From NCBI GenBank assembly GCA_011772205.1, contig WVZY01000011.1:62001-126000 (forward strand): a stretch of 64,000 bases of DNA. The letters are read 5' to 3'. A program made the position numbers and the translations under genes. The stretch comes from Candidatus Latescibacterota bacterium. GTDB lineage: Bacteria; Krumholzibacteriota; Krumholzibacteriia; WVZY01. How positions within the stretch are numbered: position 1 is the stretch's first letter; each line of letters opens with the position of its first letter. Below are positions 11,621 through 35,071 of the stretch, one piece after another. The notes beneath the pieces are model-generated. The model searched no databases. It had not been told where the DNA came from and saw only the letters and a list, made by a program, of their open reading frames with translations.

Positions 11621-11914
11621 CTCGAATGGGAACTTTCCCCCATCGCTTGCCCAGCCGGTAAAGGGCGTTCCTTGTTGCCTTTTCGGGGGATAGCTGGTAA
11701 AATTCCCCCAATTTCCCGCATTCCGGCTGAATAGTGGTTCGAGTCCTCGATCAGAAATTGGTAAATTCATTTAATGATAATAAGTTATAGCTGCACCTCA
11801 TGCGGTGCTGACGGGTGGCGGGGCATGGGACTTGCTGATTTATTCGGGCTTAGCACGAAGTGGGTTTCAGGACCCCCAAAAAGCTGTTAATATGGCCGCT
11901 TGAAGGTGATTGCT
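11621..11914. other. Intergenic region before the giant gene
   Basis: No gene seen. It contains an AT-rich stretch (11758-11790) that could hold a promoter and a small hairpin (GCACC 11793-11797 with GGTGC 11804-11808). A GGGT/ACCC hairpin lies near 11862-11876. I do not recognise a riboswitch class here. Confidence 0.4.
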
Positions 11915-17900: not shown

Positions 17901-20900
17901 TCGATGCATTCGTATCCGGGCAAACAGGTGGTCAGACCGTTTTCGATCTGTCTCTTGCGCCTTATCTGCCGTTGCCTGAATGGACGATTCAAGCCGGAGC
18001 AACGATTGAGTATATAGCGGGGTCGCTGCAGGAACCGATCGTGTCGAGCGGAAATGTGTATGCCTTCTCTGTAGAGCTCAAGAACAGCGGAGATGCCACC
18101 GTTACGCTCGATACGCTCCTGACAAAGCTGTCTTTCACCGACGGCATCGAAACGTACGAGGCGTTGCTTGCTCAAACGGCGGCACTTGCTGGTGGTGCAA
18201 CCCAACGGGTCGAATTCGATTCTACCATGGTTCCACTCTCCTTCATTCCAGGTGATTACGACGTCGAAATTCATCTCGAAGGCGTGGAGAACGGAGGACC
18301 ATTCGTCGATTCAGTTAGAACATCCGATAAAACGGATTACCTGACGGTCGTGACACCGGCTTCAGTAAGCCCGGTTCTCGGTTCGCTGTCTCCGGACCGA
18401 GTCAGCAGATCCACCTCCGTGTTTTTCGAGATCGAAGTCCAAAACACAGGCGGGGCAAGTGTTGTTCTGAACCCCGATTCCACGCGGTTTTCCTTCGCCG
18501 CGGGCGCGCACGATGTACCTCTGGATGTCGATTTGAACACCGTTATAAGTAAATCTGGCTCCACGGTGCTCCGATTCAATCCCCAGATGGTAACGGCACC
18601 GGCAACGATCTATTTCCCTTCTGTGAGACTTTATGGCACTGAGAACGGGCTTCCCTTCGATGAAGCGTTCGTCCTTCAGGACACCCTCTACGTTCAGGAT
18701 GCCCCCGATATCAGCATTGTATTATTAGTGCCCTCACAACCTCGAATCACCGCCGATCGAAGCGCCGGAATCTCCATACGGATGGATGTGAGTAATTCCG
18801 GTCAGGCCACCGTAGATTTCGACAGCGCCAAGGTTCGCTTCATTTTAGGTGGCATCGATAGAACGGATGAATTCATCATCACGTCTCCTGTGTCATTCGA
18901 GGGCGGGATCAACCTCCCTGGTGACAGTACAGATTCTGTGTTGTTTGGAATATCGGACAATCCAAGCAATTTAATGAGCACAGGAAACATGACGATCGAA
19001 GGCACTCTCTGGGTAACTGATCCCAATGGTCCTACTGAGATCGTTGCGGACACCGATCTTGGCGGGAAGGGAAGCTTGATCGTCGAAAGTCCAGCGGTGC
19101 TCGCAATCGAATCGATTACGCCATCGCAGGATCCTGTTTCAGCCTTACAAACGAAGCCGTTCAAGATCCGCATGGCTGTCCGGAACGTTGGGGAGTCCGC
19201 AATAACCGTCGCCTTGGATCGAGACAGCACGTATTTGAGCTTCACGCCGTCTGGCGGCGGTTGGGAGTGGACGATTGAGGATACGCTTGCTGGCGGCGGA
19301 AGAACCATCGGCGGTGGCGAAGTTGATACAGTGAGATTCGATGTTTCGAAAGCCGGGGGTATCGCGGACTTGAATGTGATCGATGGTGTCGTCGAAGCCG
19401 AAGAGAAAAACAGCGGTTGGCATATCATACATGATACCAGCGATAATGGATCGGGAACGATTCTGGTGCAATCCCAGGCGGCAATCAGTATCACGAGTGT
19501 CACACCATCGCGCCCAACGGTGACACAGGAATCCGGAGCAGACTGGACAATCCGGATCGATGTAACGAACGCGGGCGAAGCGGAGCTCGCACTCACGCTC
19601 CCCGAGAGTTTGACGGTTACATTCCAGGATACGGTCGGCGGTACGGTTTATTCGAAACCGTCTACCTTCGAGGGAGGCGGAGTGAACTTGACCGGTGGAG
19701 CAAGCGGGGAACTGGTCGTCGACGTAGACAGTACAGGTGCCTTCAGCTCAAGGGGATCTAAAACCATCAGCGTCCGACTGGCTGGAGTTGAGCTGAACAG
19801 CGGGCGGCCTGTCTCGGGAATAGATTCTGGCAGCGTTACTGTACAAGCACAGCCCGACGTGGTGTATCTCCCCAATTCTCTGGATCCAGATACTGTTTCG
19901 AGCGGTTCCGTTGTAGGATTCCAAATAGGACTGGTCAACGTCGTACCCGACGGCGCAACGATCCATTTGGATCCAAGCCTTACGAAGATGCGCTTCGGGG
20001 CTGGGCTATTTGAAGCGTCACTTGATCCGTCCAGTATAGATCCGATCCCTGGAACTAAAGGAGACACTCTTGTTTTTGTGGCAACTACAATAGACACTCT
20101 CATCCCGCCGGGTCTTACGCCTATCGAGTTGGATCTGCATTGGACCGAGAACGGAGCAACCGGATCGAAATTGATTACTATATCCGGTGAGCTGCTCATC
20201 CAAGATGCTCCGAGACTCAATATCGTCCAGATCAGATCCAGCCAGCCAACAGTGACCGCCAATCAGGCGAAAACATGGCATATCACCATGATCCTCGAAA
20301 ACAACGGGGAAACCGGAGTGGATCTCGATCTTTCCGATGGCATGACAGACCTGACATTAAAGACGCTCGGAGATGTGGATGTGTCCAGCGAGTACATTAT
20401 CCCTCAGCCTACCGCTCTTGACGGGGTAGGGGGGACGATCTTGCCAGGAGATGCAACCGATTCGCTCATATTTGATGTCACTCAGACCGGAACCACACGG
20501 GGGCTGATCCTCATCTCCGGTGAAGCCACAGGCACGGACGTGATTTCCAGTGAGCCGGTTTTCGACGACACGTTCGATGGAGGGGCCGGAAACGTTACCG
20601 TTCAATCCGAAGCCATTTTGAACATTGCGGGTATCACTCCAGAGCAACCGACAGCCACAGCAGGACAGACGAGCGGTTACAAGATAAAGATGGCAGTTGA
20701 GAATCTCGGTGGTTCATCGGTCGATCTTTCGCTGGATTCGGTCAGCACGAAGCTGACCTTCTCAAAGCCTGGAGGGTGGAGTTGGACCATCGATTCCACG
20801 CTGGTCAGTGGTGGACGCATATTGGCCGGCGGCGCTACCGATACAGTTGTATTCAATATACAGCGTACCGGGGATTCGACGGACACCACTCTAATCGGCG

Positions 20901-23900
20901 GGCAGCTCAAGGGATTCGAGATAAACAGCGATCGTCTCGTCGATACTACCGAAGTGGATGTAGGATCGATTATCATTCAATCTCCAGCTTCCCTTGCTAT
21001 TAACAGTGTTGCGCCCTCACGCACAACGGTGACTGAAGATTCGCCCGTCGATTGGTCGATCACTGTGCAGGTGGAGAATACAGGTGGGTCGGATGTTTCG
21101 CTGATTCTTCCAGACGGTGCAACAGCCGCGATCGAAAGTGATACAAGCGGTACACTCATCCAGAAGCCATCGGAACTCCAAAGTGGGGGAACGCTCCTAC
21201 CTGGTGGTGGTGTTGGCGAGCTCGTATTCATTGTCGATCAAACAGGACTTTTCTCGGGATATGGATCGAAAGCAATTCAGGTCGACCTAATTGGAAGAGA
21301 ACTGAACAGCAATCAGAATGTTCCCGGAACGGGATTCGGTAATGTGACAATTCAAGCGGTCCCAACCGTGCAATATGTCTCGGGATCTCTTGAGCCAGAT
21401 TCCGTATCGAAAGGCGAAGAGGTACAATTCAAAGTCACAGTTAAGAATCCCAATTCTGATGCGGCAGCGATCCATCTTGATCCTCTCTCCACGAAACTCC
21501 AGTTTGCTGCTGGGCAATTCACTGCGTTGCTGGATCCATTGTCACCTGCCTCCATAGCAGGGGGCGATAGCGTAGAGCTTGTTTTCGATCCCACAACGAT
21601 TGATACGGCCATCTCAACAGGTCCTGAAACGGTTTCAGTCGAACTTCAATGGCTTGAGAATGGAAGGCCCGATTCCGATATACTCACAATTGATAACGAG
21701 CTGCTTATACAAGCTCCTTCCGACCTACAGATCACACAGATTTACACGAACCAGCCGACTGTCACCGCCCAGCAGTCGAAATCCTGGTTCATCTCGATGG
21801 TTGTGGCCAATAATGGCGGAGCGGGCATTATTTTAGATCTCGATGAGGCGGCGACTCACCCGAATTTTGAGCTGCTGGGCATCGGCGATGTGTCGGACGA
21901 GTACACGGTCAATTACCCGCCGACTGGCTTCCTCGAAGGGGATATTCTTAAAGGAGGAGTCGCCGATACGCTGGTTTTCGAAGTGAGCGGTACGGGGAGC
22001 TCGACTGGAACAATTCTAATTTCGGGAAGTGTCGAAGGACGGGATGTCAATACGAGCGAGATCATCAAAGATGAAGGCGGTAGCGCGCTGGTACTCGTTC
22101 AATCCAAAGCCGTTCTGAATATAGCGGGAATTACTACTCCATCCAAGGTTACAGAAGGTCAAACGGCTCCTTTCGAGATTACGATGGCCGTTCAAAATAT
22201 GGGCGAATCAGAGGTACGCGTTGCACTTCATAAAGACAGCACGAGTATTACCTTTGCTGAACCAGATGGTTGGATGTGGAACATAGAACCAGCTCTTGTC
22301 GGCGGAGGGGATGTTATAGCTGGCGGTGTCATCGACACAGTCATATTCAGCGTCCAAAGTACCGGTGACTCCACGGGCATGATATCGATAGATGGACGCG
22401 TGCAAGGCTTCGAGTTGAACAGCGATCGGTTTATCGATACTACTGTGGTTAATGTGGATTCGATTCTCGTTCAAACGAAGCCTCAGCTTGAGGTCACCTC
22501 GACAGTCCTCGCAGCGCCGAATCCGCCATATGTAAATACGAACCAGGATTTCCAAGTAGCCACGGTCATCACGAACAACGGCGAAGCCGAGGCAGAGAGC
22601 GTATACATTCATATCGAAAAGTCCGGTGGGAGCATCTTGCCGGAGACGCTTCGCGTCATCGCGAACCTGTCCGGCGGCGGTTCGACGGCCGCAGATACAT
22701 TTGCCGTCACGGCGGCTGCCGTGGCTGACACAGAAACGTTCACAGTTGTCGTCGATTCGGCTCTGGATGCGAACTCCGGTCAGGGTCTCTTTCAAATTAT
22801 AACGCCGGCTCTCGATGACACAGCTGTTGCATTCATACAAAATCCCGCTGTACTTGCAATTGATGGCGTATTTCCTAGTCAGGACAGGGTCACAAGACAG
22901 CAGACGACCGATTGGTCCATTACAATTGCCCTCCAAAACGGAGGTGATGCGGGACTGCAGCTCACTCCGGCGACAGCCGATGACATCGGCTTCTTCATCG
23001 GAACGCAGGAGCAGATCGGCTATGCCGTTCTGGCGCCGGATACGTTTTTATCTGGAGCGACGGATTGGCGCATAATGGGAGGAGCTACCGACACGCTTGT
23101 CTACACTGTTGCTTCTACAGGCAGCAACACGGGTACGGTCCGGATAGACGCCAACCTCACTGCGATCGATCTAAACAATCCCGGCGCGGGACTGCTTCAA
23201 GACTTAGACAGTTCGACCGTACAAGTTGAAGCTCCCTCCGGGCTGTTTATCGATTCGACGTACGCGGTGGCGCCGAACACACTTACCAATAGAGCATTTG
23301 TTAATACCAATCAACCTTACTCCATAAATGTAAAGATCAAGAATACAGGCGAGGCCGTTCACCGGGTTCGCGTGAGTTTGCGTTCCGATGGCTCAACCCT
23401 CCCCGTTCCCCAACTAAGCGATCCATTATCTCTCGCTACCGATGATAGCACCACGTATAGTTTCAGCGTGACAGCTGCTTCCAGCGCTGAGCCGTTCGAG
23501 ACCTTTACGGCGAAAATCGACTCGGCCACATCGGTAAACACCCAATTGCCCGTCAATCCCGGCCCCTCTGTCGATGATCAGGAGTTCGTCACAACTCAAG
23601 TTCCGGCTGATTTGCGCTTGTCATTCGACATCACAGCGCCCCTGGAAGCTACGGATGATACGTTAAGTACAAACCAGTCCTTCGATGTAACAGCTATCGT
23701 CTCGAATAATGGTGAAGCCGAAGTAGAAGGAACTGGACGGGTGAGAATTGAATATCCATCGAGTTTTGTCCTGATCGCGGGCGCTGCCATCCGCAATTAC
23801 TCTGAAGACGAATCCATCATTTGGACATTACGTGCCCCTAATACGGCATCGCTCGGGCAGGAGATTACGTGCACCATTATCGATACGCTTATCGACAGAA

Positions 23901-25513
23901 ACATCGACCAGCCGGCGTTTGTGTCCAAACGCGCTGACAAAATCACAGTGGATGTGCTCCCGGCGGCTACGCTGGCCAATCCTATTCTCAGCATAATTGA
24001 TCCTGGTGGAGCAACGGATAACACTATCAGCACTGATCAGGAATTCAAGGTAAGAGTGGAAGTAACGACAAACGCTCAGACAGAAAATATCGAAGCAAAG
24101 CTCATCCTTCCTGCTGTCTTCCAGCCTATCGGTCCAAGCACAAAATTACTTGGCGACGGGATCGATGGCCCCCCAATGGCGGCTACGTTCAGAGTCCTTG
24201 CTCCGTCTTCAGCATTCAACGACACAATCAAGGTGACATTCACAGGAATCGATGAAAACACCAGCGCTAATCTCGCTGCAACATCGCCCGGTTTATACGT
24301 CGTAGTAATAGAAAAAGCCAGTCTCACTTTAGCTGCGGATATCACTGCGCCGCCTGAAGCTCGAGATAATATTGTGACTATTGGCTCCTCGTTCACCATT
24401 GAGGCTACTGTTACAAACGCTTCTGGCCATGCGGGTATAAACACGTTAATAACAACTCCTCTCCTGAAGATGAGGCTTCAGGGCGGCTACACATTTGTCA
24501 ATCCTGCTGATTCGGTACAGAATTTCGACTTGGGCATCCCGGTCGCATGGGAAGTCAAAGCCCCCTCGGACCCGACCGGGCCGCAGCCGATAATCATCGA
24601 GATAGATTCTATCCCCGTGGACGAAAACAGTGAGTTGCCGGCCGAGGTAGCTGTCGGCCAGGTAACGATTCCAATTCAAACGGAGAGCGCGGTCGTCACG
24701 GTTGATGATGTTACAGAAGCGCTGAATTTCGAGACAAAAGTTGTTCAGGGTGGAGCACAAAACATTGGCCTATTCGGCATCGAGATCAGGAATCCTGGCG
24801 ATAAATCTGCACCGACTGCCGAAGTCGTATCAATTAGATTTACAGTGGAAGATGGAAATAGAAATCCGCTTAGTAGTCCGGATCGAACATTGAGCGGTTT
24901 CTCTGTCGATGTCGGTGGTGGTGCCGGCCAAATCATTGTATCTAATCTATCTGTAAATCCCATCGTTGTGGACTTTTCGGGCGCAGGTAACGCGAGATTC
25001 CTGCCACCAGGCGATAACACCAATATCGCTGTTAGCGTGAGTATCCTGAAGAATCCCGCGGACAGCGAGATCCGCTTGGTCATTCAGAGCGGCAGCCATA
25101 TCGAAGTGAGGGATACCTCATCCGGCGAGCTTCTCAGCGTAGTCGATAAAACCACCAATCAGCCGATCGGCGAGGGCGTCCTCAAGTCCCGACCACTCGT
25201 CATCCTATCGAGCCAGTTCTCCGAATACGCGCACAACTATCCGAATCCGTTCCGTGCGGGGAGCGAGGAGACCCGGATCGCGTATTTCCTCGACAGTCCC
25301 GGAGACGTCACCGTTCGCATTTTCTCATTAACAGGCGACCTCGTCTGGGAGCAGGCGTATCGTCAGCCCGATCCGCACACACAGGCCGGCCCTCAAGAGA
25401 TCCTGTGGGACGGCCGCAATCTCAAGAAAGAAGTGATAAGAAACGGCATCTACATATGCCGGATCCAAGCAGGACCAAACCAGGCGACGTTCAGAATCGC
25501 CGTTGCGAAATAA
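11915..25513 (+). CDS. Giant secreted multi-repeat protein with FlgD/type IX sorting-like C-terminal domain
   Basis: About 4,530 residues. I prefer TTG 11915, preceded by AAGGTGAT with suitable spacing; TTG 11900 is also in frame. Signal peptide R-N-R-I-L-L-F-A-L-S-A-V-F-L-L-L-F. Residues about 170-400 hold two near-identical segments, each with a close cysteine pair (S-T-C-A-V-A-M-C and S-T-C-A-F-G-C). Residues about 510-1,690 hold around a dozen bacterial Ig-like domains of the invasin/Big_1 type (V-K-D-A-F-G-N-W-V, A-R-D-A-Y-G-N-R-V). Residues about 1,800-4,140 are CARDB-like modules with N-N-G-E-A or N-T-G-G-S motifs. The last 95 residues (Y-P-N-P-F-R, I-L-W-D-G-R-N, R-N-G-I-Y-I-C-R-I) are a sorting-like domain. 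No enzyme is visible. It is probably a surface fibre, adhesin or S-layer-like scaffold. Confidence 0.88.
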   Translation: MRNRILLFALSAVFLLLFSSSLHAGTPGSGTATIDPPSDVTAGSQGTWTITYTAEDYFNAGVVLITIPVGWTAPQDGAPNSPGYITVSTDDPACSPTLSIGGQVITINADTLNIGKVLTLVYGDTAGEANPNAKATAQTTAEDSVQFLVESDSEMGNNPALIASSPTIDVVAGPIVKLEFISSPFTFPSTGEAGPLILQTQDQYGNPSAPIADTQINLTSTCAVAMCSRLGGASFSEVDSIIQGAGNDTVSFYYRDTVVGTPTITASAEGQSWTAAQQQQTVDPGPITQLVFISDPNTFECTSEAGPIAIQTQDQNENPSLVSSNQQINLSSTCAFGCFSVLGGENFSPVDSIVMPAGTHTTSFYYRDTRTGTPTITASAQGQPWEDTQQQMAEPGPPHHLTISPSDTTMTAGDFIAYTISVVDSLGNATGLLNDRVVLLESDPSGDFYLPSDHSTPIALLIIAAGEQDTLLDYRNTDANGGIAHILDIRTFDPLSPTLVGIDSVTVAPASVDTAVSTISATTPVVADGSPSTVTVTVKDAFANPIDSVTVTLSATGSASVNDPAGPTNPDGVAVGSGTNLVAETVIVRAVADGDTLSDSATVVFVPGDVDADSSLVAATSPVTADGVDKSIITVTARDANGNPVSGASVTLSVSSEQPEDVLTQPGGVTGPNGQVQGELRSTVTAMPRYVKAVINSVSIVDSAEVVFEAGPAAEFVWTHDGNVVAGVFEDVNLEVLDAQGNRVIAYSDSVFLETTTQWGEVEWAYGTGAKGTIVPLPTDTLYAFDVLDNGIVNLRVKSTLMESIRLRAYRGLAFGESGPLNVHHAAPDSLVIDSGNNQTAEVNTAVGSPLVVKVKDAFGNWVDTTEVTFTVLAGGGLVDVDTTAGGPQDSVAVSAANGEAVCEKWVLGQQSGSDTVRAHMQSGSVTSVNFSATGVAGTGTQIELTPSSKGVTVGSGTEVTAVLKDQFDNVVSGKRVDIFIKDSVADGTLEPNPADPNPTYPLTQTARYGFTDSAGEISVVYRAPLAAALIDSLDAEGDGAPRDSVDDVVYTSTASGATDLKIVWLSSDTAQAGQSFLFKIQAVDGNDNVDTGNSSLVNISGQMGSTLEFSENDFGPTITQVTLINGEKQVYGRGTLVGRWEITASDDASILGDGTEYVVIEDAAVVDHYVVSTVDSVMAGASFNVSVEARDAYGNRVMGAGNNIDLIAVSPADSLPRPDTLLVGTAPLVAGRAIVGENYVRAENILVWVRDASLKEGFSNVLKVKPAGAHQIVYVSGDSTGVVAGSSALLVSRVWDVYENNVPGVSVVFSVLSGGGNVTPGSENSGSDGMVTVTLTTGVAAGENRVRGTIDDGNPPHLETVEYTVQTIASNIHHYTVTPEKTTIAAGEVITVEVKAFDINNNLLEEDSTTGVILGSTTGNAQYGSATDTLVGGIYSTTVWDTVAEPDLILTVDTQGGGPSDSSAVVTVTNAPAYELAAIAGDTSGVEVGFRQRLWVEVLDQYGNVVPGQGVNFTIINDPDGTAELRDALPDTTDGITSTNSAGRAWVDLITSNEAGDNLVRASILDGTPPNLETYTFIVSTQAGEIAYYAVTPDATGGTAGVPIGITVRAFDSNDNPVPDNTTSVEFFVEPPDTGTFAPSSPIVLQAGTLTTAVTVTEVGDFQVRARTEGDTATAGLSPPITIGPNVPWGLITATASPETITANGVSTSIVTSDSITDAYGNVVSEGTFVTVAITDGAIISSDQDPGTPGNQQETDAFGIISFQVQSSTTQGLAAISMNSVAGSASGVTQVYFAQPPTLVCPSPPIPSAVAPGDSVAFRIFVRNTSQTNVTLSTATTFDFTDGAESFSAPLESPIFIGAGLTDTLRFVKQWVHGDMNPGSYSPVINLAGTDQYGAVYSEPCLLPPNSLIISSIRIESITAKPFVSRGTTDTVIVAVKNLGPLPATIETVDLTFSFGSYGVRTALGLPRVIGFNETAQVTVLVPIGSSSPIGMSTIDAFVSGQTGGQTVFDLSLAPYLPLPEWTIQAGATIEYIAGSLQEPIVSSGNVYAFSVELKNSGDATVTLDTLLTKLSFTDGIETYEALLAQTAALAGGATQRVEFDSTMVPLSFIPGDYDVEIHLEGVENGGPFVDSVRTSDKTDYLTVVTPASVSPVLGSLSPDRVSRSTSVFFEIEVQNTGGASVVLNPDSTRFSFAAGAHDVPLDVDLNTVISKSGSTVLRFNPQMVTAPATIYFPSVRLYGTENGLPFDEAFVLQDTLYVQDAPDISIVLLVPSQPRITADRSAGISIRMDVSNSGQATVDFDSAKVRFILGGIDRTDEFIITSPVSFEGGINLPGDSTDSVLFGISDNPSNLMSTGNMTIEGTLWVTDPNGPTEIVADTDLGGKGSLIVESPAVLAIESITPSQDPVSALQTKPFKIRMAVRNVGESAITVALDRDSTYLSFTPSGGGWEWTIEDTLAGGGRTIGGGEVDTVRFDVSKAGGIADLNVIDGVVEAEEKNSGWHIIHDTSDNGSGTILVQSQAAISITSVTPSRPTVTQESGADWTIRIDVTNAGEAELALTLPESLTVTFQDTVGGTVYSKPSTFEGGGVNLTGGASGELVVDVDSTGAFSSRGSKTISVRLAGVELNSGRPVSGIDSGSVTVQAQPDVVYLPNSLDPDTVSSGSVVGFQIGLVNVVPDGATIHLDPSLTKMRFGAGLFEASLDPSSIDPIPGTKGDTLVFVATTIDTLIPPGLTPIELDLHWTENGATGSKLITISGELLIQDAPRLNIVQIRSSQPTVTANQAKTWHITMILENNGETGVDLDLSDGMTDLTLKTLGDVDVSSEYIIPQPTALDGVGGTILPGDATDSLIFDVTQTGTTRGLILISGEATGTDVISSEPVFDDTFDGGAGNVTVQSEAILNIAGITPEQPTATAGQTSGYKIKMAVENLGGSSVDLSLDSVSTKLTFSKPGGWSWTIDSTLVSGGRILAGGATDTVVFNIQRTGDSTDTTLIGGQLKGFEINSDRLVDTTEVDVGSIIIQSPASLAINSVAPSRTTVTEDSPVDWSITVQVENTGGSDVSLILPDGATAAIESDTSGTLIQKPSELQSGGTLLPGGGVGELVFIVDQTGLFSGYGSKAIQVDLIGRELNSNQNVPGTGFGNVTIQAVPTVQYVSGSLEPDSVSKGEEVQFKVTVKNPNSDAAAIHLDPLSTKLQFAAGQFTALLDPLSPASIAGGDSVELVFDPTTIDTAISTGPETVSVELQWLENGRPDSDILTIDNELLIQAPSDLQITQIYTNQPTVTAQQSKSWFISMVVANNGGAGIILDLDEAATHPNFELLGIGDVSDEYTVNYPPTGFLEGDILKGGVADTLVFEVSGTGSSTGTILISGSVEGRDVNTSEIIKDEGGSALVLVQSKAVLNIAGITTPSKVTEGQTAPFEITMAVQNMGESEVRVALHKDSTSITFAEPDGWMWNIEPALVGGGDVIAGGVIDTVIFSVQSTGDSTGMISIDGRVQGFELNSDRFIDTTVVNVDSILVQTKPQLEVTSTVLAAPNPPYVNTNQDFQVATVITNNGEAEAESVYIHIEKSGGSILPETLRVIANLSGGGSTAADTFAVTAAAVADTETFTVVVDSALDANSGQGLFQIITPALDDTAVAFIQNPAVLAIDGVFPSQDRVTRQQTTDWSITIALQNGGDAGLQLTPATADDIGFFIGTQEQIGYAVLAPDTFLSGATDWRIMGGATDTLVYTVASTGSNTGTVRIDANLTAIDLNNPGAGLLQDLDSSTVQVEAPSGLFIDSTYAVAPNTLTNRAFVNTNQPYSINVKIKNTGEAVHRVRVSLRSDGSTLPVPQLSDPLSLATDDSTTYSFSVTAASSAEPFETFTAKIDSATSVNTQLPVNPGPSVDDQEFVTTQVPADLRLSFDITAPLEATDDTLSTNQSFDVTAIVSNNGEAEVEGTGRVRIEYPSSFVLIAGAAIRNYSEDESIIWTLRAPNTASLGQEITCTIIDTLIDRNIDQPAFVSKRADKITVDVLPAATLANPILSIIDPGGATDNTISTDQEFKVRVEVTTNAQTENIEAKLILPAVFQPIGPSTKLLGDGIDGPPMAATFRVLAPSSAFNDTIKVTFTGIDENTSANLAATSPGLYVVVIEKASLTLAADITAPPEARDNIVTIGSSFTIEATVTNASGHAGINTLITTPLLKMRLQGGYTFVNPADSVQNFDLGIPVAWEVKAPSDPTGPQPIIIEIDSIPVDENSELPAEVAVGQVTIPIQTESAVVTVDDVTEALNFETKVVQGGAQNIGLFGIEIRNPGDKSAPTAEVVSIRFTVEDGNRNPLSSPDRTLSGFSVDVGGGAGQIIVSNLSVNPIVVDFSGAGNARFLPPGDNTNIAVSVSILKNPADSEIRLVIQSGSHIEVRDTSSGELLSVVDKTTNQPIGEGVLKSRPLVILSSQFSEYAHNYPNPFRAGSEETRIAYFLDSPGDVTVRIFSLTGDLVWEQAYRQPDPHTQAGPQEILWDGRNLKKEVIRNGIYICRIQAGPNQATFRIAVAK
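18364..22482 (+). repeat. Higher-order ~500-residue repeat inside the giant gene
   Basis: Four distinct modules (a, b, c, d; each about 120-130 residues) recur in the same order. Module a starts near 18364, 19852 and 21358; b near 18708, 20210 and 21718; c near 19090, 20611 and 22105; d near 19480 and 20987. Matched codons in module a (18380, 19874, 21383) are 1,494 and 1,509 bases apart. The third round stops after c. Confidence 0.8.
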
Positions 25514-25557
25514 ATTTTAAAAACGCCGTGCTGAGCACCCTGCAAAAAAGTGAGCGC

Positions 25558-27498
25558 ATGATGATGAGGTGGAACGAACATAGGAATCCAACAAGGCACA
25601 GCCGCTTGTTCCTGGGCGCGGCACTTCTTGCTGCCTTCGTTGCCCTGACGGTTCCGGTCAATCAAGCCGCCAACGCCGAAGAAGGTGACGGCGGCACGCG
25701 GAGTGTCTTTTCCATTGGCGCCGGCTCCCGCGCGATCTCGCTGGGGAGGGCATTCGTGAGCATCGCCGATGACGCGAGCGCCGTTTACTGGAATCCCGCG
25801 GCACTCCGAAACGTCCAGGACAAGCAGATCATGGGAATGTACATGCCCGTCTTTGGTGATTTCACCGGAGCGGACTTCACGTTTTTCGGCGCGGCGTATC
25901 CGACGTTGAGCGCCGGTGTGTTCGGACTTGGTTTCATGCGTGTCGGAACGACCTTCCAGGGTTTTGACGCGGACAGCCGCCCCACGGGTGAAGGCGACTA
26001 CTCGGAGAGCCAGTTCATGATTGCTTACGCCATCGAGCGGCATTCACGGTTCTTTTTGGGCTCCCTCGCCACGGGTGTGTCGTTCAAAATTGCGAACCAG
26101 AAGGTCTCGCCGTATTCGAGCACGGCTCCCGGACTCGATCTCGGCTTTCGGCTGATACCGGATGCCGCCAAGTCGATCTCGATCGGCGTGAACCTCCAGG
26201 ACCTATCCGGGCCGCGGCACAAGCTGGCCCTGGATGCGGATCGCACATACCGCACGATCATGGCTGGCATGGGATACACGAAAGTCTTTTCCAGCGGCTC
26301 CGCCATCAGGCTGAACATCCAAACGGACTTCCCCGAAAAAGCCGACCGCGAGTTCCACGTGGGCGCCGAATACGCCCATTCGAAGTATCTCGCCCTCCGG
26401 ATCGGCATGGACCGGAGCGATTTCACGTTCGGAATCGGTGTGAATGTGGCCGGTTTCGGCTTCGATTATGCAATGCTCTCCAGGGATGAACCGGGGTCCT
26501 CGCACCCCGTTACATTCACAACTCATTTTGGCAAAACGCTTTACGAGCAGCGAGAGATTCTCGCCGATGAGCGCCGTAGAGAACAGGAGGATGCCGTCCG
26601 GCGCGCATTTGCCAGCCGCGTGGAGGAGCACCGCAACAAGGCGAAAGCCCACGAGGCGGAGGGCAATTTCCCGCTTGCACTCGACGAGTGGAAGATCGTT
26701 CTTGAATATATGCCGGGCGATGCAGAGGCGGAGGCGCATGTGAGAGACGCGACGCAGCAGCTGGTCCGCGAGCAGGAAGCGGCGAACCGGGATATCGAGA
26801 AACAAGCGGTCATCAGCACGCATTTCTCGCAGGGCCTCTCCTTCTATCAGCAGAACGATTACGTGCGGGCCCGCGACGAATGGCGGGCGATTCTTGCGAT
26901 CGATTCGACGCACGCGGAGGCCCGTGAGTATCTCCTGAGAACGCGGGAGAAGATCGACGAGCGCATCTCGACCCATTTGCAGCGGGCCAACTCGCTCGAG
27001 AGACAGAACCGGTTGACCGAGGCGTATGGCGAATGGACGTACATCCAGCTTCTCGACGCGGCGAATCGAGAAGCGGAACAGGCAATACGCCGGATCCAGC
27101 GGAAGATAGAAACGCAGTCGCAGGATCTGGAAGTCGTTTCCCGGAGGCTCAGGATCGTCAACCTGTACAGCGACGCACTCAGAAAGTACAACCAGGGCGA
27201 ATACGAGTCCTGCGTGAAAGATCTCGAACAGATCCTCCGTCTGCAGCCTTCGCATGAGGAGGCTAAGACACTCTTGGCAATGGCGAAGCGGAAGATCACT
27301 CCGCTGACAACAGAAGAGGAGCAAAGGATCCAGAAGCTCTACCTCAAGGGCATGCAGTACTTCTCCAAAGATCAGTATGCGGAAGCGATCGCCGAGTGGG
27401 AGAAGATACTCGAGATCGATCCCGGGAACGAAAGCGTCCGCAGAAACATCGAAGAAGCCCGGGAGCGTCTCAGGCAGCTCGAGCGGCAATCGAAATAA
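25558..27498 (+). CDS. PorV/PorQ-like barrel fused to C-terminal TPR domain
   Basis: 646 residues from ATG 25558 (ATGATGATG run; 25561 and 25564 are alternatives). The open frame extends further upstream, but into the end of the giant gene. A signal peptide (L-F-L-G-A-A-L-L-A-A-F-V-A-L) precedes the PorV-type motif G-S-R-A-I-S-L-G-R-A-F-V-S-I-A-D-D-A-S-A followed by W-N-P-A-A-L. The barrel-like part runs to about residue 320. A charged helical linker follows, then several TPR units (for example F-P-L-A-L-D-E-W-K-I-V-L-E and Y-A-E-A-I-A-E-W-E-K-I-L-E-I-D-P-G-N). It follows the giant gene by 44 bases, so it may help export or anchor that protein. Confidence 0.82.
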   Translation: MMMRWNEHRNPTRHSRLFLGAALLAAFVALTVPVNQAANAEEGDGGTRSVFSIGAGSRAISLGRAFVSIADDASAVYWNPAALRNVQDKQIMGMYMPVFGDFTGADFTFFGAAYPTLSAGVFGLGFMRVGTTFQGFDADSRPTGEGDYSESQFMIAYAIERHSRFFLGSLATGVSFKIANQKVSPYSSTAPGLDLGFRLIPDAAKSISIGVNLQDLSGPRHKLALDADRTYRTIMAGMGYTKVFSSGSAIRLNIQTDFPEKADREFHVGAEYAHSKYLALRIGMDRSDFTFGIGVNVAGFGFDYAMLSRDEPGSSHPVTFTTHFGKTLYEQREILADERRREQEDAVRRAFASRVEEHRNKAKAHEAEGNFPLALDEWKIVLEYMPGDAEAEAHVRDATQQLVREQEAANRDIEKQAVISTHFSQGLSFYQQNDYVRARDEWRAILAIDSTHAEAREYLLRTREKIDERISTHLQRANSLERQNRLTEAYGEWTYIQLLDAANREAEQAIRRIQRKIETQSQDLEVVSRRLRIVNLYSDALRKYNQGEYESCVKDLEQILRLQPSHEEAKTLLAMAKRKITPLTTEEEQRIQKLYLKGMQYFSKDQYAEAIAEWEKILEIDPGNESVRRNIEEARERLRQLERQSK

Positions 27499-27628: not shown

Positions 27629-30600
27629 ATGGCCGAGGTAGCTAGGATACCAGAACAGCCCGTAAAGATCCTCGAATTGAGCGTACCCGCAGACGATAGC
27701 CAACTCAGCCGCGTCCGGGACTTCGTGGTCGACGCATGCCAGTCGGCCGGTCTTTCCCTGAGGGAGACCAACAACACAAAACTCGCCGTCGACGAAGCCT
27801 GCACGAACATCATCAAGCACGCCTACGTTAAACAATCGGGAGACATCAAAATCAGGGCGGAGATCTTCCCCGACGAGGTTCAGATCACGCTCCATGATAC
27901 CGGAGAGCACTTCGACTTCGCCAGTATCGAAGATCCGGACCTGGACGAGTACGTCGAATCGGGGAAGAAAGGCGGCCTCGGTGTTTATCTGATCAATCGG
28001 CTAATGGACACGGTCGAGTATCACGCAATCCCCGGCGGTAACGAGCTCGTTCTCACCAAGAAAGGTCAGGCGGCAGCGGCCAAAGCCCTCCCGGGCGTAG
28101 TCTCCTGGAGAAATTCGCTACGGTTCAAATTCACACTCAGGGCGGCTCTGGGACTGTTTATTCTCGTCACTGCGATCTGGGCGTTCATCTTTGTCCGCCA
28201 GACGGGCAGTATCAACGACCAGAGGAACATGCAATGGGTCGAGAAAAAAAGGATCGCGGCAAACCTCGCGAGCAGGAGTAAAGATCTTCTTCTCCAACCG
28301 GAAGCGTTTTCCGTCGAGCAGACGAACCTGGGAGTTTATCTCGCGAAGCTCCTATCCAGCGACAACAGCCTCGCGTACGTTCGAGTCCTCGATCCCACAG
28401 GAAAAATTCTTTCTTCGGGAAACGTCGATGAGATCTTTTCCCAGTATCAGGAACCCGAGAGTGTTTCTCTACTCACCGAAGAAAGCGGAGTCGCATGGAC
28501 GCAAATGCGTGTCGGCGGGCAGGCTGTCCGCAATATCTTTTTTCCGGTCGTTGTGCGGAGTGCCGAATCGGAAAAGACTATCACGCTCGGCGGCGTCCAC
28601 GTGGGTGTTTACGAGAACGCCGTTGAGGGCGCGATCAATGATCCGAGGTTCTCCACCGCATTGCTGATCATCGGCATTCTGCTCGTCGGCGTTTTGCTGA
28701 TCATGGGACTCGTTTCCGTATTCGTGCGACCGATCCAGGTGCTCACAGACGGTGTCCGGGCAATCGGAGAGGGGGCTCTGGACGGCGAGATCGCCGTGCA
28801 CGGCCCTGCTGAGATCGGAGCGATAGCCGCCGTTTTCAACGAGATCACGCAAAAATTCAAGAAGGCGCAGGAAAGCGTCCTCGAGCAGGAAAAACTCCAG
28901 AAGGAAATGGAGGTTGCCAAGCAGATCCAGCACTCGCTGCTGCCGAAGCGATTGCCGGACGTCAGCGGGTACGACATTGCCCCTTACTACCAGGCGGCGG
29001 CGGAAGTCGGCGGGGATTACTACGATTTCGTTCAGGTGGACGACGACACGGTGGGAATCGTTGTGGCCGATGTTTCCGGTAAAGGCGTGCCGGGCTCTCT
29101 GGTCATGACAATGATCCGGACGGCGCTCAGAATGGAGGCAAGGGGCAACAAGAACGCTTCCGATGTGATGGCGAAGATGAACGACTTCGTAACGGATGAT
29201 ATGCGGAAAGGCATGTTCGTCACGATGTTCTACGTGATTCTCGACTCCAAGAACCGGATCGTGAGCTATGCCAGCGCGGGTCACAATCCTATGGTTCTGT
29301 ACCGGCGCGAGGCGAACGAAACGTATTTCCTCAATCCGAAAGGTTTCCCGGTTGGCATCAGTCTCCCCGACGAGTCGCTGTTCAGAAGATCGATCTCGCT
29401 CGAGAAAATTAAGCTCAAAAAGGATGATATGCTCCTCATATATACGGATGGTGTAACGGAAGCGATGGATCCGCAGAGGGAGCAATACGGTGAGGACCGG
29501 ATGCTCCGGCTGATCAAACGGTACGGTCATCTCCACCCGAAGGAGTTCATCTCGAAATTGGAGGCCGACATCAGGACTTTCACCGGCGGCCAACCACAAA
29601 ACGACGATATCACCGTTGTCGCAATAAAAGAAAAGCTCACCGCCGACGAGGTGCTCTCCGGTCTGCGTAAGAAGCTCATCGATCTTGTCGAGGTCGGGGG
29701 GCTGAGCGTCAAAGAAGCCTGCGCGCGCATGAGAGTGTCCCCCGCCACTTACTACCGCTACAAGAAACGGCTGGAGATGCTGGGTGAAAGAGGGCTCAAG
29801 GACAAGATCCTGCGGCAGGACGTGGAACTCAGGCGGGTAAGCCTCGAAGATCGCCAAGAGATCATTGCAATCATCCAGAGACATCCCGAGTACGGTGCGA
29901 AGCGGATTACCGCCGAATTCAACACCGGCAAGGATCCGAACAAGAAGCTGACGGTGAGAATGGTTTACGACGAACTCAAACGCCTTGGCCTCAATACGAA
30001 ACAACTGCGGCTCGATTACCTGAGACGTCATCGTCTCCTTGATGAGGAGGAGCTGCGGGAGAAAGAGAAGGAAATGGTGGAAGAGCTCCTTCGGGAAGTC
30101 ACGGCTGCAGGTACAGAAGCGGAGCTCGCCAGGGAAAAGGCCGTTGCGGGCGCCGATGCGGATCAGGTCGTGGAATTCGAAGCAGTGGGTGATCTGGCGG
30201 TTTCATTCAGAAAAGCGGATGGGGACGTCACGGTGCTCCAAATCGAAGGCCACTTGGATTCCGTCTCGTCCTCCTCTCTGGAAAAGAAGCTCAAAGAAAT
30301 GATCTCCGGTGGCAATTTCAAAATCGCCGTAGATCTTTCCAGAGTCTCTTATGTTTCGAGCGGTGGTTGGGGGATCTTCGCTGGAGAAGTAAGAAGATTG
30401 AGAGAATCAGGAGGAGACGTCGTTCTTGTTGGAATGTCGAGTGAAGTATTCGACGTGTATGATCTCCTCGGCTTTTCCGATCTGCTTCATGCTTTTCCGG
30501 ATATGAACGGAGCCATCCAGTTCTTCAGGTTGCCCCCTGAGGAGCGTATCAAAGCGGCAAAGGAGCTCGCTGCGGACCAAGTAACCGAAACGCCCGTACT

Positions 30601-32035
30601 CGGCCCCGCAGACGGCGAGGTCGTCGAAGTTATTCCCGGGGAGAGCTATGTCCCCGAGTGGGAGAGCTTGGAGATAGAAGCCACGACCGTCGGGGACGCC
30701 GGAGATATCGCTGTTCTATCCTTGAGGGGGATCATCGATACGGTCAGCGCCGAAAATCTCCGAAGAGCCCTGGACCGTGTGATCGCAAGCGGGCGCAACA
30801 AGATCGTTATCGACTTGTCTCTCATCGAGTACGTGTCGAGCGGCGGGTGGGGCGCATTTACCGAGCGATTGCGGGAAGTGCGGCGCGCGGGCGGCGACAT
30901 CAAGCTCTTCGGAATGGACGCGGATGTTTATTATGTGTTCACCATGCTCGGTTTCAACATCGTGCTGTCGTCTTTCGACATCCTTGCCGATGCCATCGAG
31001 GATTTCAAGCGCGAGCCTGGAAGACAAACGGTAGTGCCGGGTTCCCGGCTGCCTGCTGAAGCTCCTCATGGAGGAGAAGACATGGGATCGGCGGAGGAAG
31101 ATGACAGGATTGCGAGATCCGAAATGGACCTCGAGTTCGATCGGCGTGCTCCTGCGGGCTACGATGTTACAGATGCACGGGCTCGGGAGAAGCTCGTTTC
31201 ATGGGAGGCCCCGGTCGAAGGTGTTCTGATCTCGCGTCTCCATGGTTCTATCGAAGCATCCGCGGTGGCGATTCTGGACGGTGAAATCGAGTCACATCTG
31301 GTGGACCAGCCGAACGTCGTCCTGTTCGATCTCGAAGACGTCCATTATGCATCCAGTGCCGGATGGGGACTTTTCGCAAAATGTCTCGACCTGTGCGCCG
31401 CGTGGGGAGGCATTGTGGCACTCTGTTCACTCAATGAGGATCTCTACGAGATTTACCAGTATCTCGAATTACAGCCGCTTATTCCTGCTTACTCATCGAG
31501 GAATGAGGCGCTGCATCAGATAGAAGCCTTGAAGCAAAAGCGCGCCGAAGCCAGCAGACCTGTGGAGCATCCGCCCAGAGATGAGCCGTCCATCGCGTAC
31601 GGGGAACCAGCGGTCGCGGATCGTGAGCAGCCCGTCGAAGGGGAAGTGTCGTCAGTAGACGACGTGCTCGGTCGTGAGCAACAACCGAAGGACGGTGTTT
31701 CGAAGAGCGACCTTCAGGAGACAGCGGGTGAGGTGCCATCCAGTGACGCGGGCAAGGGCGCCTGGCCGGAGATGGCGCCTCGCAAGGATATTCCGCCGGA
31801 GCCGGAGGAGCCCGTGTCGCCTGCTTCGCCCCCTCGGCCTCGCGAAGATGCACCGGATCAGCGGGAGGACGTCGTTTTTGAAGAAGAGCCCCATGCAGTG
31901 GATGTTCAATCATCCGCCACGACCGACAAGCACGTTGCGGAAGACGATAGACTTCGCGATATGGGATGGGAAAAGTACGGTGAGGAGCTAAAACGCAGCC
32001 TGAGACGCAAAAAGAATAAAAAGGAAAATTCGTGA
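27629..32035 (+). CDS. Partner-switching mega-protein: HATPase kinase, membrane HAMP sensor, PP2C phosphatase, HTH and three STAS domains
   Basis: 1,468 residues. Residues 10-146: RsbW/SpoIIAB-type GHKL ATPase (D-E-A-C-T-N-I-I-K-H-A 55-65; G-G-L-G-V-Y-L-I 115-122). Residues 166-190 and 344-366: membrane segments around an extracytoplasmic domain of about 150 residues; HAMP to about 420. Residues 425-669: SpoIIE/RsbU PP2C phosphatase (G-G-D-Y-Y-D-F 461, D-V-S-G-K-G-V-P-G 481, Y-T-D-G-V-T-E-A 605, N-D-D-I-T-V-V 658). Residues 670-800: two helix-turn-helix domains like those at the N-terminus of IS3/IS481 transposases. STAS domains at 856-970, 1015-1128 and 1190-1303 carry V-S-S-G-G-W-G, V-S-S-G-G-W-G and A-S-S-A-G-W-G, keeping the serine pair where RsbV-type antagonists are phosphorylated. 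The last 165 residues are charged and probably disordered. The opposing enzymes and their usual substrate lie in one chain. Confidence 0.93.
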   Translation: MAEVARIPEQPVKILELSVPADDSQLSRVRDFVVDACQSAGLSLRETNNTKLAVDEACTNIIKHAYVKQSGDIKIRAEIFPDEVQITLHDTGEHFDFASIEDPDLDEYVESGKKGGLGVYLINRLMDTVEYHAIPGGNELVLTKKGQAAAAKALPGVVSWRNSLRFKFTLRAALGLFILVTAIWAFIFVRQTGSINDQRNMQWVEKKRIAANLASRSKDLLLQPEAFSVEQTNLGVYLAKLLSSDNSLAYVRVLDPTGKILSSGNVDEIFSQYQEPESVSLLTEESGVAWTQMRVGGQAVRNIFFPVVVRSAESEKTITLGGVHVGVYENAVEGAINDPRFSTALLIIGILLVGVLLIMGLVSVFVRPIQVLTDGVRAIGEGALDGEIAVHGPAEIGAIAAVFNEITQKFKKAQESVLEQEKLQKEMEVAKQIQHSLLPKRLPDVSGYDIAPYYQAAAEVGGDYYDFVQVDDDTVGIVVADVSGKGVPGSLVMTMIRTALRMEARGNKNASDVMAKMNDFVTDDMRKGMFVTMFYVILDSKNRIVSYASAGHNPMVLYRREANETYFLNPKGFPVGISLPDESLFRRSISLEKIKLKKDDMLLIYTDGVTEAMDPQREQYGEDRMLRLIKRYGHLHPKEFISKLEADIRTFTGGQPQNDDITVVAIKEKLTADEVLSGLRKKLIDLVEVGGLSVKEACARMRVSPATYYRYKKRLEMLGERGLKDKILRQDVELRRVSLEDRQEIIAIIQRHPEYGAKRITAEFNTGKDPNKKLTVRMVYDELKRLGLNTKQLRLDYLRRHRLLDEEELREKEKEMVEELLREVTAAGTEAELAREKAVAGADADQVVEFEAVGDLAVSFRKADGDVTVLQIEGHLDSVSSSSLEKKLKEMISGGNFKIAVDLSRVSYVSSGGWGIFAGEVRRLRESGGDVVLVGMSSEVFDVYDLLGFSDLLHAFPDMNGAIQFFRLPPEERIKAAKELAADQVTETPVLGPADGEVVEVIPGESYVPEWESLEIEATTVGDAGDIAVLSLRGIIDTVSAENLRRALDRVIASGRNKIVIDLSLIEYVSSGGWGAFTERLREVRRAGGDIKLFGMDADVYYVFTMLGFNIVLSSFDILADAIEDFKREPGRQTVVPGSRLPAEAPHGGEDMGSAEEDDRIARSEMDLEFDRRAPAGYDVTDARAREKLVSWEAPVEGVLISRLHGSIEASAVAILDGEIESHLVDQPNVVLFDLEDVHYASSAGWGLFAKCLDLCAAWGGIVALCSLNEDLYEIYQYLELQPLIPAYSSRNEALHQIEALKQKRAEASRPVEHPPRDEPSIAYGEPAVADREQPVEGEVSSVDDVLGREQQPKDGVSKSDLQETAGEVPSSDAGKGAWPEMAPRKDIPPEPEEPVSPASPPRPREDAPDQREDVVFEEEPHAVDVQSSATTDKHVAEDDRLRDMGWEKYGEELKRSLRRKKNKKENS

Positions 32036-32769
32036 GAAAGATTGCGATCATTACATCCAAGGGGGGAACGGGGAAAACGACCACGGCAATCAATCTCGGG
32101 CACGGGCTCGCGCTGTGTGGCAAGCGGGTACTGATCATCGATTGCGATGCCCAGCGAAACATTGGCATTGCTTTTGATGTAAAAGCCGAGAAGACGCTTT
32201 GCGACCTCCTGCAGTACGGCGATGTGGATGTGGTCGAAGTCCGGAAGAACCTGTACATGATCGATTCGGGCGGACGGGATCTTGCCGAGCTTGAAATGAT
32301 ACTCGCAGGTCAGTCAAAGAGGGAACGGCGCCTGGAACGGGCGCTAGAAAATCTCAGCGGGTGCGACGTGGTACTGTGTGACTGTTCTCCGACGATTAAC
32401 TTGATCAATATAAATGCGATTACCTATGCGGAGGAAGTGATCATCCCTATTAGCATGGATTATCTTGCCCAGGCTGGAGCGCGCCAGACCATACAGATCA
32501 TCGATGAAGTCAATTCGTACACGAACTCCGGCACGCAGGTGATGGGTATTCTCGGCACGTTTTATGATGGGAGAACCCGGCTATCGAAAGAGGTGCTGGA
32601 GACGCTGCGAAAACATTTTCCGGATACGCTCCTCGATACCGTCATTCGTATCAACACCTCGCTTCGGGAAGCACCGAGCTTCAACCGGACGATATTCGAG
32701 CACTCACCCATGTCACGGGGGGCGTTTGATTATTACCAATTGACAGAGGAGTTTCTGAGACGTGGATAA
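32032..32769 (+). CDS. ParA/Soj-family ATPase
   Basis: 245 residues, GTG start overlapping the upstream TGA by four bases, so translation is coupled to the mega-protein. The deviant Walker A motif K-G-G-T-G-K-T-T-T lies at residues 10-18, followed by I-I-D-C-D-A-Q and V-V-L-C-D-C-S-P-T (the switch and Walker B region). ParA proteins form ATP-dependent dimers that bind DNA non-specifically and position chromosomes, plasmids or protein clusters. The small downstream protein may be its activator. No ParB with a CTP-binding domain and no parS cluster is visible, so positioning of a protein complex is as likely as DNA segregation. Confidence 0.92.
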   Translation: MRKIAIITSKGGTGKTTTAINLGHGLALCGKRVLIIDCDAQRNIGIAFDVKAEKTLCDLLQYGDVDVVEVRKNLYMIDSGGRDLAELEMILAGQSKRERRLERALENLSGCDVVLCDCSPTINLININAITYAEEVIIPISMDYLAQAGARQTIQIIDEVNSYTNSGTQVMGILGTFYDGRTRLSKEVLETLRKHFPDTLLDTVIRINTSLREAPSFNRTIFEHSPMSRGAFDYYQLTEEFLRRG

Positions 32770-33059: not shown

Positions 33060-33106
33060 AGAAGCCATGAAGATAGGTACCGAGGCCGACGGCAAATGCC
33101 AGGGTG

Positions 33107-34231
33107 ATGAACGTGCAAAGCTATGAGCTCAGCAGTGAGATTCTGGCGAAGGGACATAAGTATTATGTCCAGACGACTCTTATCTCTTCCCAGAACCGGG
33201 TTGTAACCTCGCTCTTTCACGAAGGCAATCTCCTGTCAAAGCAGGTGGAGAGTTACGATCCTTTGAGCTCTTCCGAAGCGGTGCTGTCCTTGGCGCGCCG
33301 GTGTCATGAAGAACGGAAAAGCCGGATCAGCTCTCTCCTCGAGGTCAGCACGAAGCTCAGCAAAATGGAGGACGCGCGCGCCCATCTGAAGCTTGGAGAG
33401 GCGCTCTATCACCAATATCTCCTCAAAGAGGCAATGGCCGAAGTGGTTCGAGCGATCAAGCTCGGTGTGAAGGACTCGACCGCCTTTTCGATCCTTGGAA
33501 ATTGTCTGCTCGATCTGGGTGATCACGATCGGGCGCTCCGTGCGTTCCAGCACGGGCTCGAGATCAGTCCCAAATACCCCGATCTCCACAACGACCTGGG
33601 TCGTACGTACCTAGGCCTCAAGCGTTGCAGGAATGCGGTAAACGAGTTCGAGAAAGCGATCGATCTCAACAAGTATTACGTCGAAGCGTACATGAACCTG
33701 GCCATGGCTCTGTGTTTGAATGTGATCGAAAAGGATGATTTCGAGCTGTCAAAGGAACTGCCGAGTAGGCTGGTGAAAATCCTCCAAATGGTTGTGCAGC
33801 TCAAGCCCTCTTTGGATGTCGCTGAGTTCAACGAAGCGTTGGCTGCAGCCAAGGACGGGCAGTACGACAAAGTCTGGGAGATACTCTCAAAGATCCAGGA
33901 GGAGAGTTCGAAGTTCATAACGGACAACCTCTCTCTCGACCTCTACCTGATTTTGAAGTTCGACTCGGAGAATCTCACCGAAGAGGACATCGACCGGTAT
34001 ATCGACAAGACTCAGCGGGCGCTGGAAGCGAACCCCAATTTTGCAGACCTGCGGAATGATCTTGGCGTTTTGTACACTGCAAAATGCAAGCTCTTTATCG
34101 ATAAGGCGAATTTATCCTTCAAGGAGGCTCTCAAAATAAATAAAGACTTCAAAAAAGCCGAGAAAAACCTGAAACTATCCGAGAACGACAGGCAGGGAAT
34201 CCACCTTCTTCTGAGGGCACTTCTGGACTAA
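33107..34231 (+). CDS. TPR protein with distinct N-terminal domain
   Basis: 374 residues from ATG 33107. GTG 33104 and GTG 33113 are alternatives; the latter has AGGGTGAT four bases upstream. No signal peptide. Residues 1-50 form a small beta-rich domain (G-H-K-Y-Y-V-Q-T-T-L-I, V-V-T-S-L-F-H-E-G-N-L-L) that I do not recognise. Residues about 80-220 contain TPR units (A-H-L-K-L-G-E-A-L-Y-H-Q-Y-L, A-F-S-I-L-G-N-C-L-L-D-L-G, L-H-N-D-L-G-R-T-Y-L-G-L). One more TPR-like pair lies near the C-terminus. It probably acts as a scaffold between the ParA pair and the STAS proteins. Confidence 0.8.
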   Translation: MNVQSYELSSEILAKGHKYYVQTTLISSQNRVVTSLFHEGNLLSKQVESYDPLSSSEAVLSLARRCHEERKSRISSLLEVSTKLSKMEDARAHLKLGEALYHQYLLKEAMAEVVRAIKLGVKDSTAFSILGNCLLDLGDHDRALRAFQHGLEISPKYPDLHNDLGRTYLGLKRCRNAVNEFEKAIDLNKYYVEAYMNLAMALCLNVIEKDDFELSKELPSRLVKILQMVVQLKPSLDVAEFNEALAAAKDGQYDKVWEILSKIQEESSKFITDNLSLDLYLILKFDSENLTEEDIDRYIDKTQRALEANPNFADLRNDLGVLYTAKCKLFIDKANLSFKEALKINKDFKKAEKNLKLSENDRQGIHLLLRALLD

Positions 34232-34266: not shown

Positions 34267-34656
34267 ATGGAAAAGCTGATAATTTCAGAAGAAAAGCTTA
34301 ATGGCAAAGTGCCGGTGGCCCTCATCACCCTCAAGGGTTCGATCGAGACCACGAATGCTGCGACGCTCGAGGAAGCCATCGAGCGCGTTATCAACGACAG
34401 GTGCTACCAGATCGTCGTTGATCTCGGCGGGGTGAACTATATCAGCTCAGCAGGTTGGGGGATCTTCATTAGCGAGATCAAACGCGTTCGGCGAAACGGT
34501 GGGGATATCAAACTGGCGAAGATGAACCCCGCAGTGAGGGAAGTCTTTGAGATTCTCGAGTTCCACAACATCCTCAAACCTTACTCTTCAAAGGAAGATG
34601 CGCTTCGTGATTTCATGAGCGGTGTGGAGAAAGGTCCTGAAACGAAGAGGAAATAG
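34267..34656 (+). CDS. Stand-alone STAS protein (RsbV/SpoIIAA-like anti-sigma antagonist)
   Basis: 129 residues, one STAS domain. The loop N-Y-I-S-S-A-G-W-G keeps two serines (60 and 61) at the position phosphorylated in SpoIIAA/RsbV, and I-V-V-D-L-G-G-V is the typical preceding strand. In partner switching the unphosphorylated form binds an RsbW-type kinase. The loop and the following helix (I-F-I-S-E-I-K-R-V-R-R-N-G-G-D-I-K-L) closely resemble STAS domains 1 and 2 of the mega-protein, so that protein is its likely kinase and phosphatase. AGGA lies five bases before the ATG. Confidence 0.9.
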   Translation: MEKLIISEEKLNGKVPVALITLKGSIETTNAATLEEAIERVINDRCYQIVVDLGGVNYISSAGWGIFISEIKRVRRNGGDIKLAKMNPAVREVFEILEFHNILKPYSSKEDALRDFMSGVEKGPETKRK

Positions 34657-34693: not shown

Positions 34694-35071
34694 ATGACAG
34701 TCGACGGCATCGTAGTTAGCGTCATATCCGGTAAGGATCACGGAGAAGTCTCGATTCTGCAGGTCAGCGGCTATCTGGATACCACAACCGCCGGCGAGCT
34801 GGAGAATGCGCTGTACAACTTGCTGAAAAGAGACCAGTATAAGATCGTCGTCGACCTGTCCGGCGTTACCTATATTAGTTCGGCGGGTTGGGGGATATTT
34901 ATCGGCGAAATCAAGGAGATCCGGAGCAACGGTGGGGACCTGAAACTCGCAGGAATGATAGGGGACGTCCATGAAGTGTTCCAGCTTCTCGAGTTCCACT
35001 CGATCCTCGAAAGCTATCCGGACACCAAGTCGGCTGTAACAGCATTCAAGCAGGTCTCTATGCCGGATTAA
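34694..35071 (+). CDS. Second stand-alone STAS protein
   Basis: 125 residues, paralogue of the gene 37 bases upstream. Serines 62 and 63 sit in T-Y-I-S-S-A-G-W-G-I-F-I-G-E-I-K. The C-terminal helices (H-E-V-F-Q-L-L-E-F-H-S-I-L) match the neighbour (R-E-V-F-E-I-L-E-F-H-N-I-L). GAGGGA lies before the ATG. The two copies may be alternative outputs of the same kinase and phosphatase. Confidence 0.9.
   Translation: MTVDGIVVSVISGKDHGEVSILQVSGYLDTTTAGELENALYNLLKRDQYKIVVDLSGVTYISSAGWGIFIGEIKEIRSNGGDLKLAGMIGDVHEVFQLLEFHSILESYPDTKSAVTAFKQVSMPD

Follow-up and report, generated by a model that had tools for sequence, protein, structure and literature searches.

A conserved partner-switching phosphatase of a surface-protein operon carries an IS481 transposase-like helix-turn-helix segment, a putative DNA anchor

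Results and Discussion

Gene content and upstream region of the operon

The window analysed in this study, the whole 64,000-nucleotide stretch of contig WVZY01000011.1 of a Candidatus Latescibacterota bacterium, contains an operon on the forward strand headed by the gene of a giant surface protein of 4537 amino acids with a T9SS-type C-terminal sorting domain (11900–25513). The gene of a PorV/PorQ-like outer-membrane protein with TPR repeats (25405–27498) lies directly upstream of that of a membrane signalling protein of 1468 amino acids (27629–32035), here called the phosphatase. The phosphatase stop and the start of a ParA-family ATPase gene (32032–32769) overlap, and genes for a TPR protein (33104–34231) and two single STAS proteins (34267–34656 and 34694–35071) lie further along the same strand. 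The gene order, conserved within the phylum, runs: giant surface protein, PorV/TPR protein, phosphatase with its helix-turn-helix (HTH) segment, ParA, TPR protein, STAS, a 743-amino-acid protein (with a weak VWA match in a relative) and an LTD protein. Across phyla, the giant protein, PorV/TPR protein, phosphatase and STAS are kept, with ParA present in some. Contigs often stop inside homologs of the giant surface protein. In the giant-gene region of genome G017 (L132, 5640–8018), a 303-bp tandem repeat of 7.9 copies with 97% identity was found, which probably represents a recent expansion.

A motif search located GGGCATGGGACTTGCT, a sigma-54-type promoter, ahead of the operon head (11821–11836, forward strand). 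The motif GGCAYN5TTGC occurred at this place in 21 of the 24 phylum loci (the window, L132, L133 and L147–L167), and two further loci carried TGGTATATACCTTGCC, with one mismatch; no second sigma-54-type motif match was found in the 24 loci on either strand. A gene for RpoN is present in the genome. Sigma-54 has been described as controlling genes of the cell exterior (PMC3162934), which fits the occurrence of such a site at a surface-protein operon. Sigma-54 control as a general trait of the system was not supported, the site being absent in most operons outside the phylum. Apart from the sigma-54-type site, the sequences preceding the operon head yielded no shared operator. A 70-bp tandem repeat (11258–11577; 4.5 copies, unique in the genome) lies about 250–560 bases upstream of the promoter and is absent upstream of the operon in relatives. 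The Rfam search gave no match within positions 10000–36000 of the window.

Domain organization of the phosphatase

The order of domains according to Pfam was HATPase, transmembrane stretch, sCache, transmembrane stretch, HAMP, PP2C, HTH1, HTH2 and three STAS domains. The N-terminal kinase domain is an RsbW-like HATPase_c_2 (27683–28060; residues 19–144; E 9.2e-30), which RsbW models matched at 1e-21 to 1e-24, under their whole-protein cut-offs, and in which the N-box residues E56 and N60 were invariant wherever homologues aligned. Two hydrophobic stretches (28124–28750; residues 166–195 and 338–374) flank a weak match to the sCache_3_2 sensor (residues 206–338), and a HAMP domain (28718–28846; residues 364–406) is directly followed by a conserved coil (residues 407–470). 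The SpoIIE/PP2C phosphatase domain comes next (29039–29629; residues 471–667; E 1.7e-49); the PP2C acidic residues D463, D481, D607 and D659 were conserved in all members covering the site.

The stretch at 29636–30040, corresponding to residues 670–804, includes a segment homologous to the DNA-binding N-terminus of IS481 transposases (29666–30010; residues 680–794). It consists of HTH1 (29666–29809; residues 680–727), recognized by HTH_28, HTH_29 and HTH_23, and HTH2 (29846–30028; residues 740–800), a weak HTH_21/HTH_32 match inside the IS481 match. An acidic, fast-evolving linker (30029–30193; residues 801–855) separates it from the three STAS domains (30218–31498; residues 864–959, 1021–1118 and 1196–1290; Pfam). 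At the position aligned with Ser58 of SpoIIAA, where a phosphorylatable serine would be expected, STAS1 had Gly in all members, STAS2 mostly Ala or Ser, and STAS3 Ser in 17 of 23; a Ser one position earlier was conserved in the STAS domains. With a phosphatase, an RsbW-like kinase and clear STAS domains all present, the protein has several features of a partner-switching hub of the RsbU/RsbW/RsbV type.

Transposase homology of the HTH segment

A preliminary description of this DNA had recognized, at residues 670–800, two HTH units of the kind found in IS3/IS481 transposases, located between phosphatase and STAS domains without a DDE catalytic domain. The IS481 transposase model NF033577 (NCBIfam) indeed gave one match spanning both units (profile positions 2–109 of 284, E 6.7e-17), with a score of 61.9 bits that did not reach the curated whole-protein cut-off of 224 bits. 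The same model matched all ten family members tried. IS3 matched the segment as well, with IS481 the nearest family. An hhalign comparison of the segment with IS481 transposases of the same genome and one relative returned a probability of 98.6 (E 1.2e-15, 103 columns, 27% identity), and the best matches among plasmid records were annotated IS481 family transposases and integrase-core proteins with 30–34% identity. The homology of the HTH segment to the end of IS481 transposases is thus confirmed to be far above chance.

The individual units differed in their scores against the Pfam families. In the isolated segment, HTH1 exceeded the curated cut-offs of HTH_28 (31.8 vs. 25), HTH_29 (31.6 vs. 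28.1) and HTH_23 (28.4 vs. 24.6), whereas HTH2 alone stayed under those of HTH_21 (19.3 vs. 28.1) and HTH_32 (23.8 vs. 33.7). The position between phosphatase and STAS domains agreed with the Pfam order, and no rve/DDE domain was found by Pfam in the 1468-amino-acid protein. Because the IS481 match ends at position 109 of 284, before the DDE domain, rve is missing, and an acidic linker and STAS domains follow, the protein is not a transposase. Both N-terminal HTH units are shared with IS481 family transposases at the same spacing and about 27–34% identity, but in the window protein they lie inside a phosphatase that is encoded in single copy in a conserved operon. On these comparisons the segment is probably a captured IS481-type two-part DNA-binding domain devoid of DDE, for which we infer the direction of capture. 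The genome also carries a number of IS481/IS3-type matches; a source would thus be at hand, yet the fusion to the phosphatase is old (see below).

Predicted structure of the segment

An AlphaFold2 model of the segment, made from three usable sequences, had a pLDDT of 74 (about 80–89 in the cores), and its helices sit where two HTH units would be expected. The preliminary description had proposed structure prediction as a check on the HTH fold, and the predicted helices were HTH-like in both units. The top-ranked folds included paired domains (Pax, Prd) and the DNA-binding domains of Tc3 and TnsB; these structural matches were of intermediate quality (Foldseek E values of 0.14 or worse and Z below 7), and searching solved structures by sequence turned up no convincing match to the HTH pair. 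Two HTH units in series are shared with the paired domains of Pax6, Pax5 and Prd and with the bipartite domain of Tc3, at 12–18% sequence identity and with scores that are not significant alone. The model supports an HTH fold, short of proof.

Conservation and selection within the phylum

The HTH segment was present in 30 of the 80 genomes of the phylum, in the same host protein wherever the reading frame was complete. Every ortholog found in the phylum carries it, and no orthologs without it were found; sampled genomes lacking the segment have only paralogs of approximately 30% identity. Mean pairwise identity was 82% for SpoIIE, 72% for HTH1, 58% for HTH2, and 64% for STAS1, and fell to 23% in the linker that follows HTH2. 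The dN/dS ratios of the closest pairs, some with dS near saturation, were about 0.02–0.25 for HTH1, 0.06–0.33 for HTH2 and 0.24–0.94 for the linker, and the HTH units had lower values than the linker in every pair that gave values for both. The segment is under purifying selection. The net charge of the HTH region was +5 to +15 in all 26 members, the remaining domains of the window protein being neutral or acidic, and the recognition-helix motif VSPSTYYRYKKR was nearly invariant in most members; such a motif in a strongly basic region is expected for DNA contact.

At one locus (L060, genome G003), the phosphatase gene is interrupted by stop codons, located shortly ahead of the HTH segment and within it, and the fused STAS domains, ParA and TPR protein are absent downstream, indicating either a decayed copy or an assembly error. 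Apparent rearrangements within the gene in G004 (L061, L062) and G005 (L040) were discarded, since the interruptions consist of N runs and so represent assembly gaps in single-contig assemblies.

Distribution beyond the phylum and age of the fusion

A profile search over 387 genomes detected the fusion outside the phylum in G215/G352, G131, G375, G293/G152, G283, G123 and G268, so that it is found in the same operon in at least seven further families. All nine out-of-phylum proteins have an RsbW-like kinase, a PP2C domain that retains the acidic residues, and the HTH segment, the latter with 41–46% mean identity to that of the window, and the IS481 model matched six of the seven such proteins tested. 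In the phylum of G293, the segment was present in 37 of 40 genomes, including 23 of 23 good genomes, with one copy each. The fusion is an old, conserved component of the operon in several phyla and not a local accident.

Outside the phylum of the window, STAS is encoded by a separate gene and the tail beyond the HTH pair is short or ends in TPR repeats. Fused STAS domains were seen only within the window's own phylum, where G023 has a separate STAS gene as well. As STAS is unfused elsewhere, the HTH segment and the phosphatase form the old pair; the oldest core was likely kinase, sensor, phosphatase and HTH, with the STAS fusion a derived, later addition in the window's own phylum.

Possible functions of the HTH pair

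The HTH pair, formerly DNA-binding, could now act in protein contact or dimerisation, regulating PP2C or docking STAS or ParA partners, which we consider somewhat unlikely. Two distant out-of-phylum proteins (L180 and L181, which end in TPR repeats) retain the segment with an HTH1 that has no Pfam HTH match and a charge down to +4; direct DNA contact may therefore not be universal, and the pair may instead have a protein-contact role. The HTH pair also adjoins PP2C, an enzyme whose activity depends on dimer geometry (PMC12143880), and the operator search upstream of the operon came up empty. This reading is opposed by the near-invariance of VSPSTYYRYKKR and the strongly basic character of the region in most members and, as far as docking of ParA is concerned, by several operons that retain the HTH pair without ParA.

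Instead of regulating a promoter, the HTH pair and the neighbouring ParA could also constitute a positioning system linking the membrane complex or the surface structure to the nucleoid. Most of the phylum and G215, G352 and G375 encode ParA in a gene that overlaps that of the phosphatase or comes right after it, and HTH1 of the model superposes on the HTH domains of ParB/Noc over about 58 residues (Z 5.6–6.5). However, HTH folds are common and these Z values lie within the background range, and no adjacent ParA gene was found in the examined members of the G293 phylum or in G123, G268 and G131, where the HTH pair is nevertheless kept, which makes such a system improbable. That the segment is a mere helical linker resembling HTH units by chance, as the sub-threshold scores of HTH2 alone and the weak fold matches might suggest, is extremely improbable, chance resemblance being ruled out at the sequence level by the IS481 model match over both units, found in all ten family members tried, and by the hhalign result.

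Direct DNA contact by a membrane-anchored partner-switching hub through its HTH pair, already suggested in the preliminary description, is the reading we favour with some confidence, although it is from sequence that we infer DNA binding, target and effect on transcription. The degenerate HTH1 of L180 and L181 and the stop codons in G003 call for the most caution here, and the modest structural scores and the empty operator search also weigh against it. The Cache domain would read an outside signal, and HAMP and the coil would relay it to the phosphatase domain in the manner of RsbU-type phosphatases, for which activation through the linker has been described (PMC12143880). The phosphatase and the RsbW-like kinase would then determine whether the STAS domains and STAS proteins are phosphorylated, and the basic HTH pair, facing the cytoplasm, would tether the complex to specific DNA; the most likely site is a promoter of the protein's own surface-structure operon. 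Signal state and transcription would thereby be coupled at the membrane.

Comparison with known systems

The closest solved PP2C by sequence was that of Rv1364c of Mycobacterium tuberculosis (3ke6, E 2.8e-7), which likewise combines PP2C, RsbW-like (anti-sigma) and STAS (anti-anti-sigma) domains in one chain; it differs in having a PAS sensor and another domain order, and its description includes neither a Cache/HAMP membrane sensor nor an HTH pair (PMC12143880). SiaA-type membrane PP2C phosphatases (NF038263) share the HAMP and SpoIIE part (E 8e-19), but the score was 67.6 against a cut-off of 700, and the match stops short of the kinase, HTH and STAS domains of the window protein. An enzyme joined to a transposase DNA-binding domain is known from SETMAR, a SET methylase fused to the Hsmar1 transposase, in which the transposase domain targets the enzyme to DNA (PMC6326780); unlike the fusion described here, SETMAR is eukaryotic, mariner-type and about 50 million years old.

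No description of a SpoIIE/HTH fusion or of this operon was found in the open-licence literature searched. The fusion is real and conserved and, as far as that literature goes, undescribed, and its sequence suggests a partner-switching hub with a putative DNA anchor. Partner-switching phosphatases normally reach DNA only indirectly, via anti-sigma and sigma factors. The end of a transposase that binds DNA, placed beside a phosphatase and kept with it as one gene in several phyla, suggests that this protein may carry a surface signal straight to DNA. Tentatively, and with the balance slightly against it, this may be an ancient multi-phylum system in which one membrane protein senses the outside, switches serine phosphorylation and binds DNA through a domesticated IS481 domain, acting on a promoter of the giant surface-protein operon with no need for a separate transcription factor. 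If true, this would constitute a one-protein route from an outside signal to a promoter and, for bacteria, a very old example of transposase domestication. The conserved operon of giant surface protein, PorV-like protein, hub, ParA and STAS marks out the system and gives a direct experimental handle.
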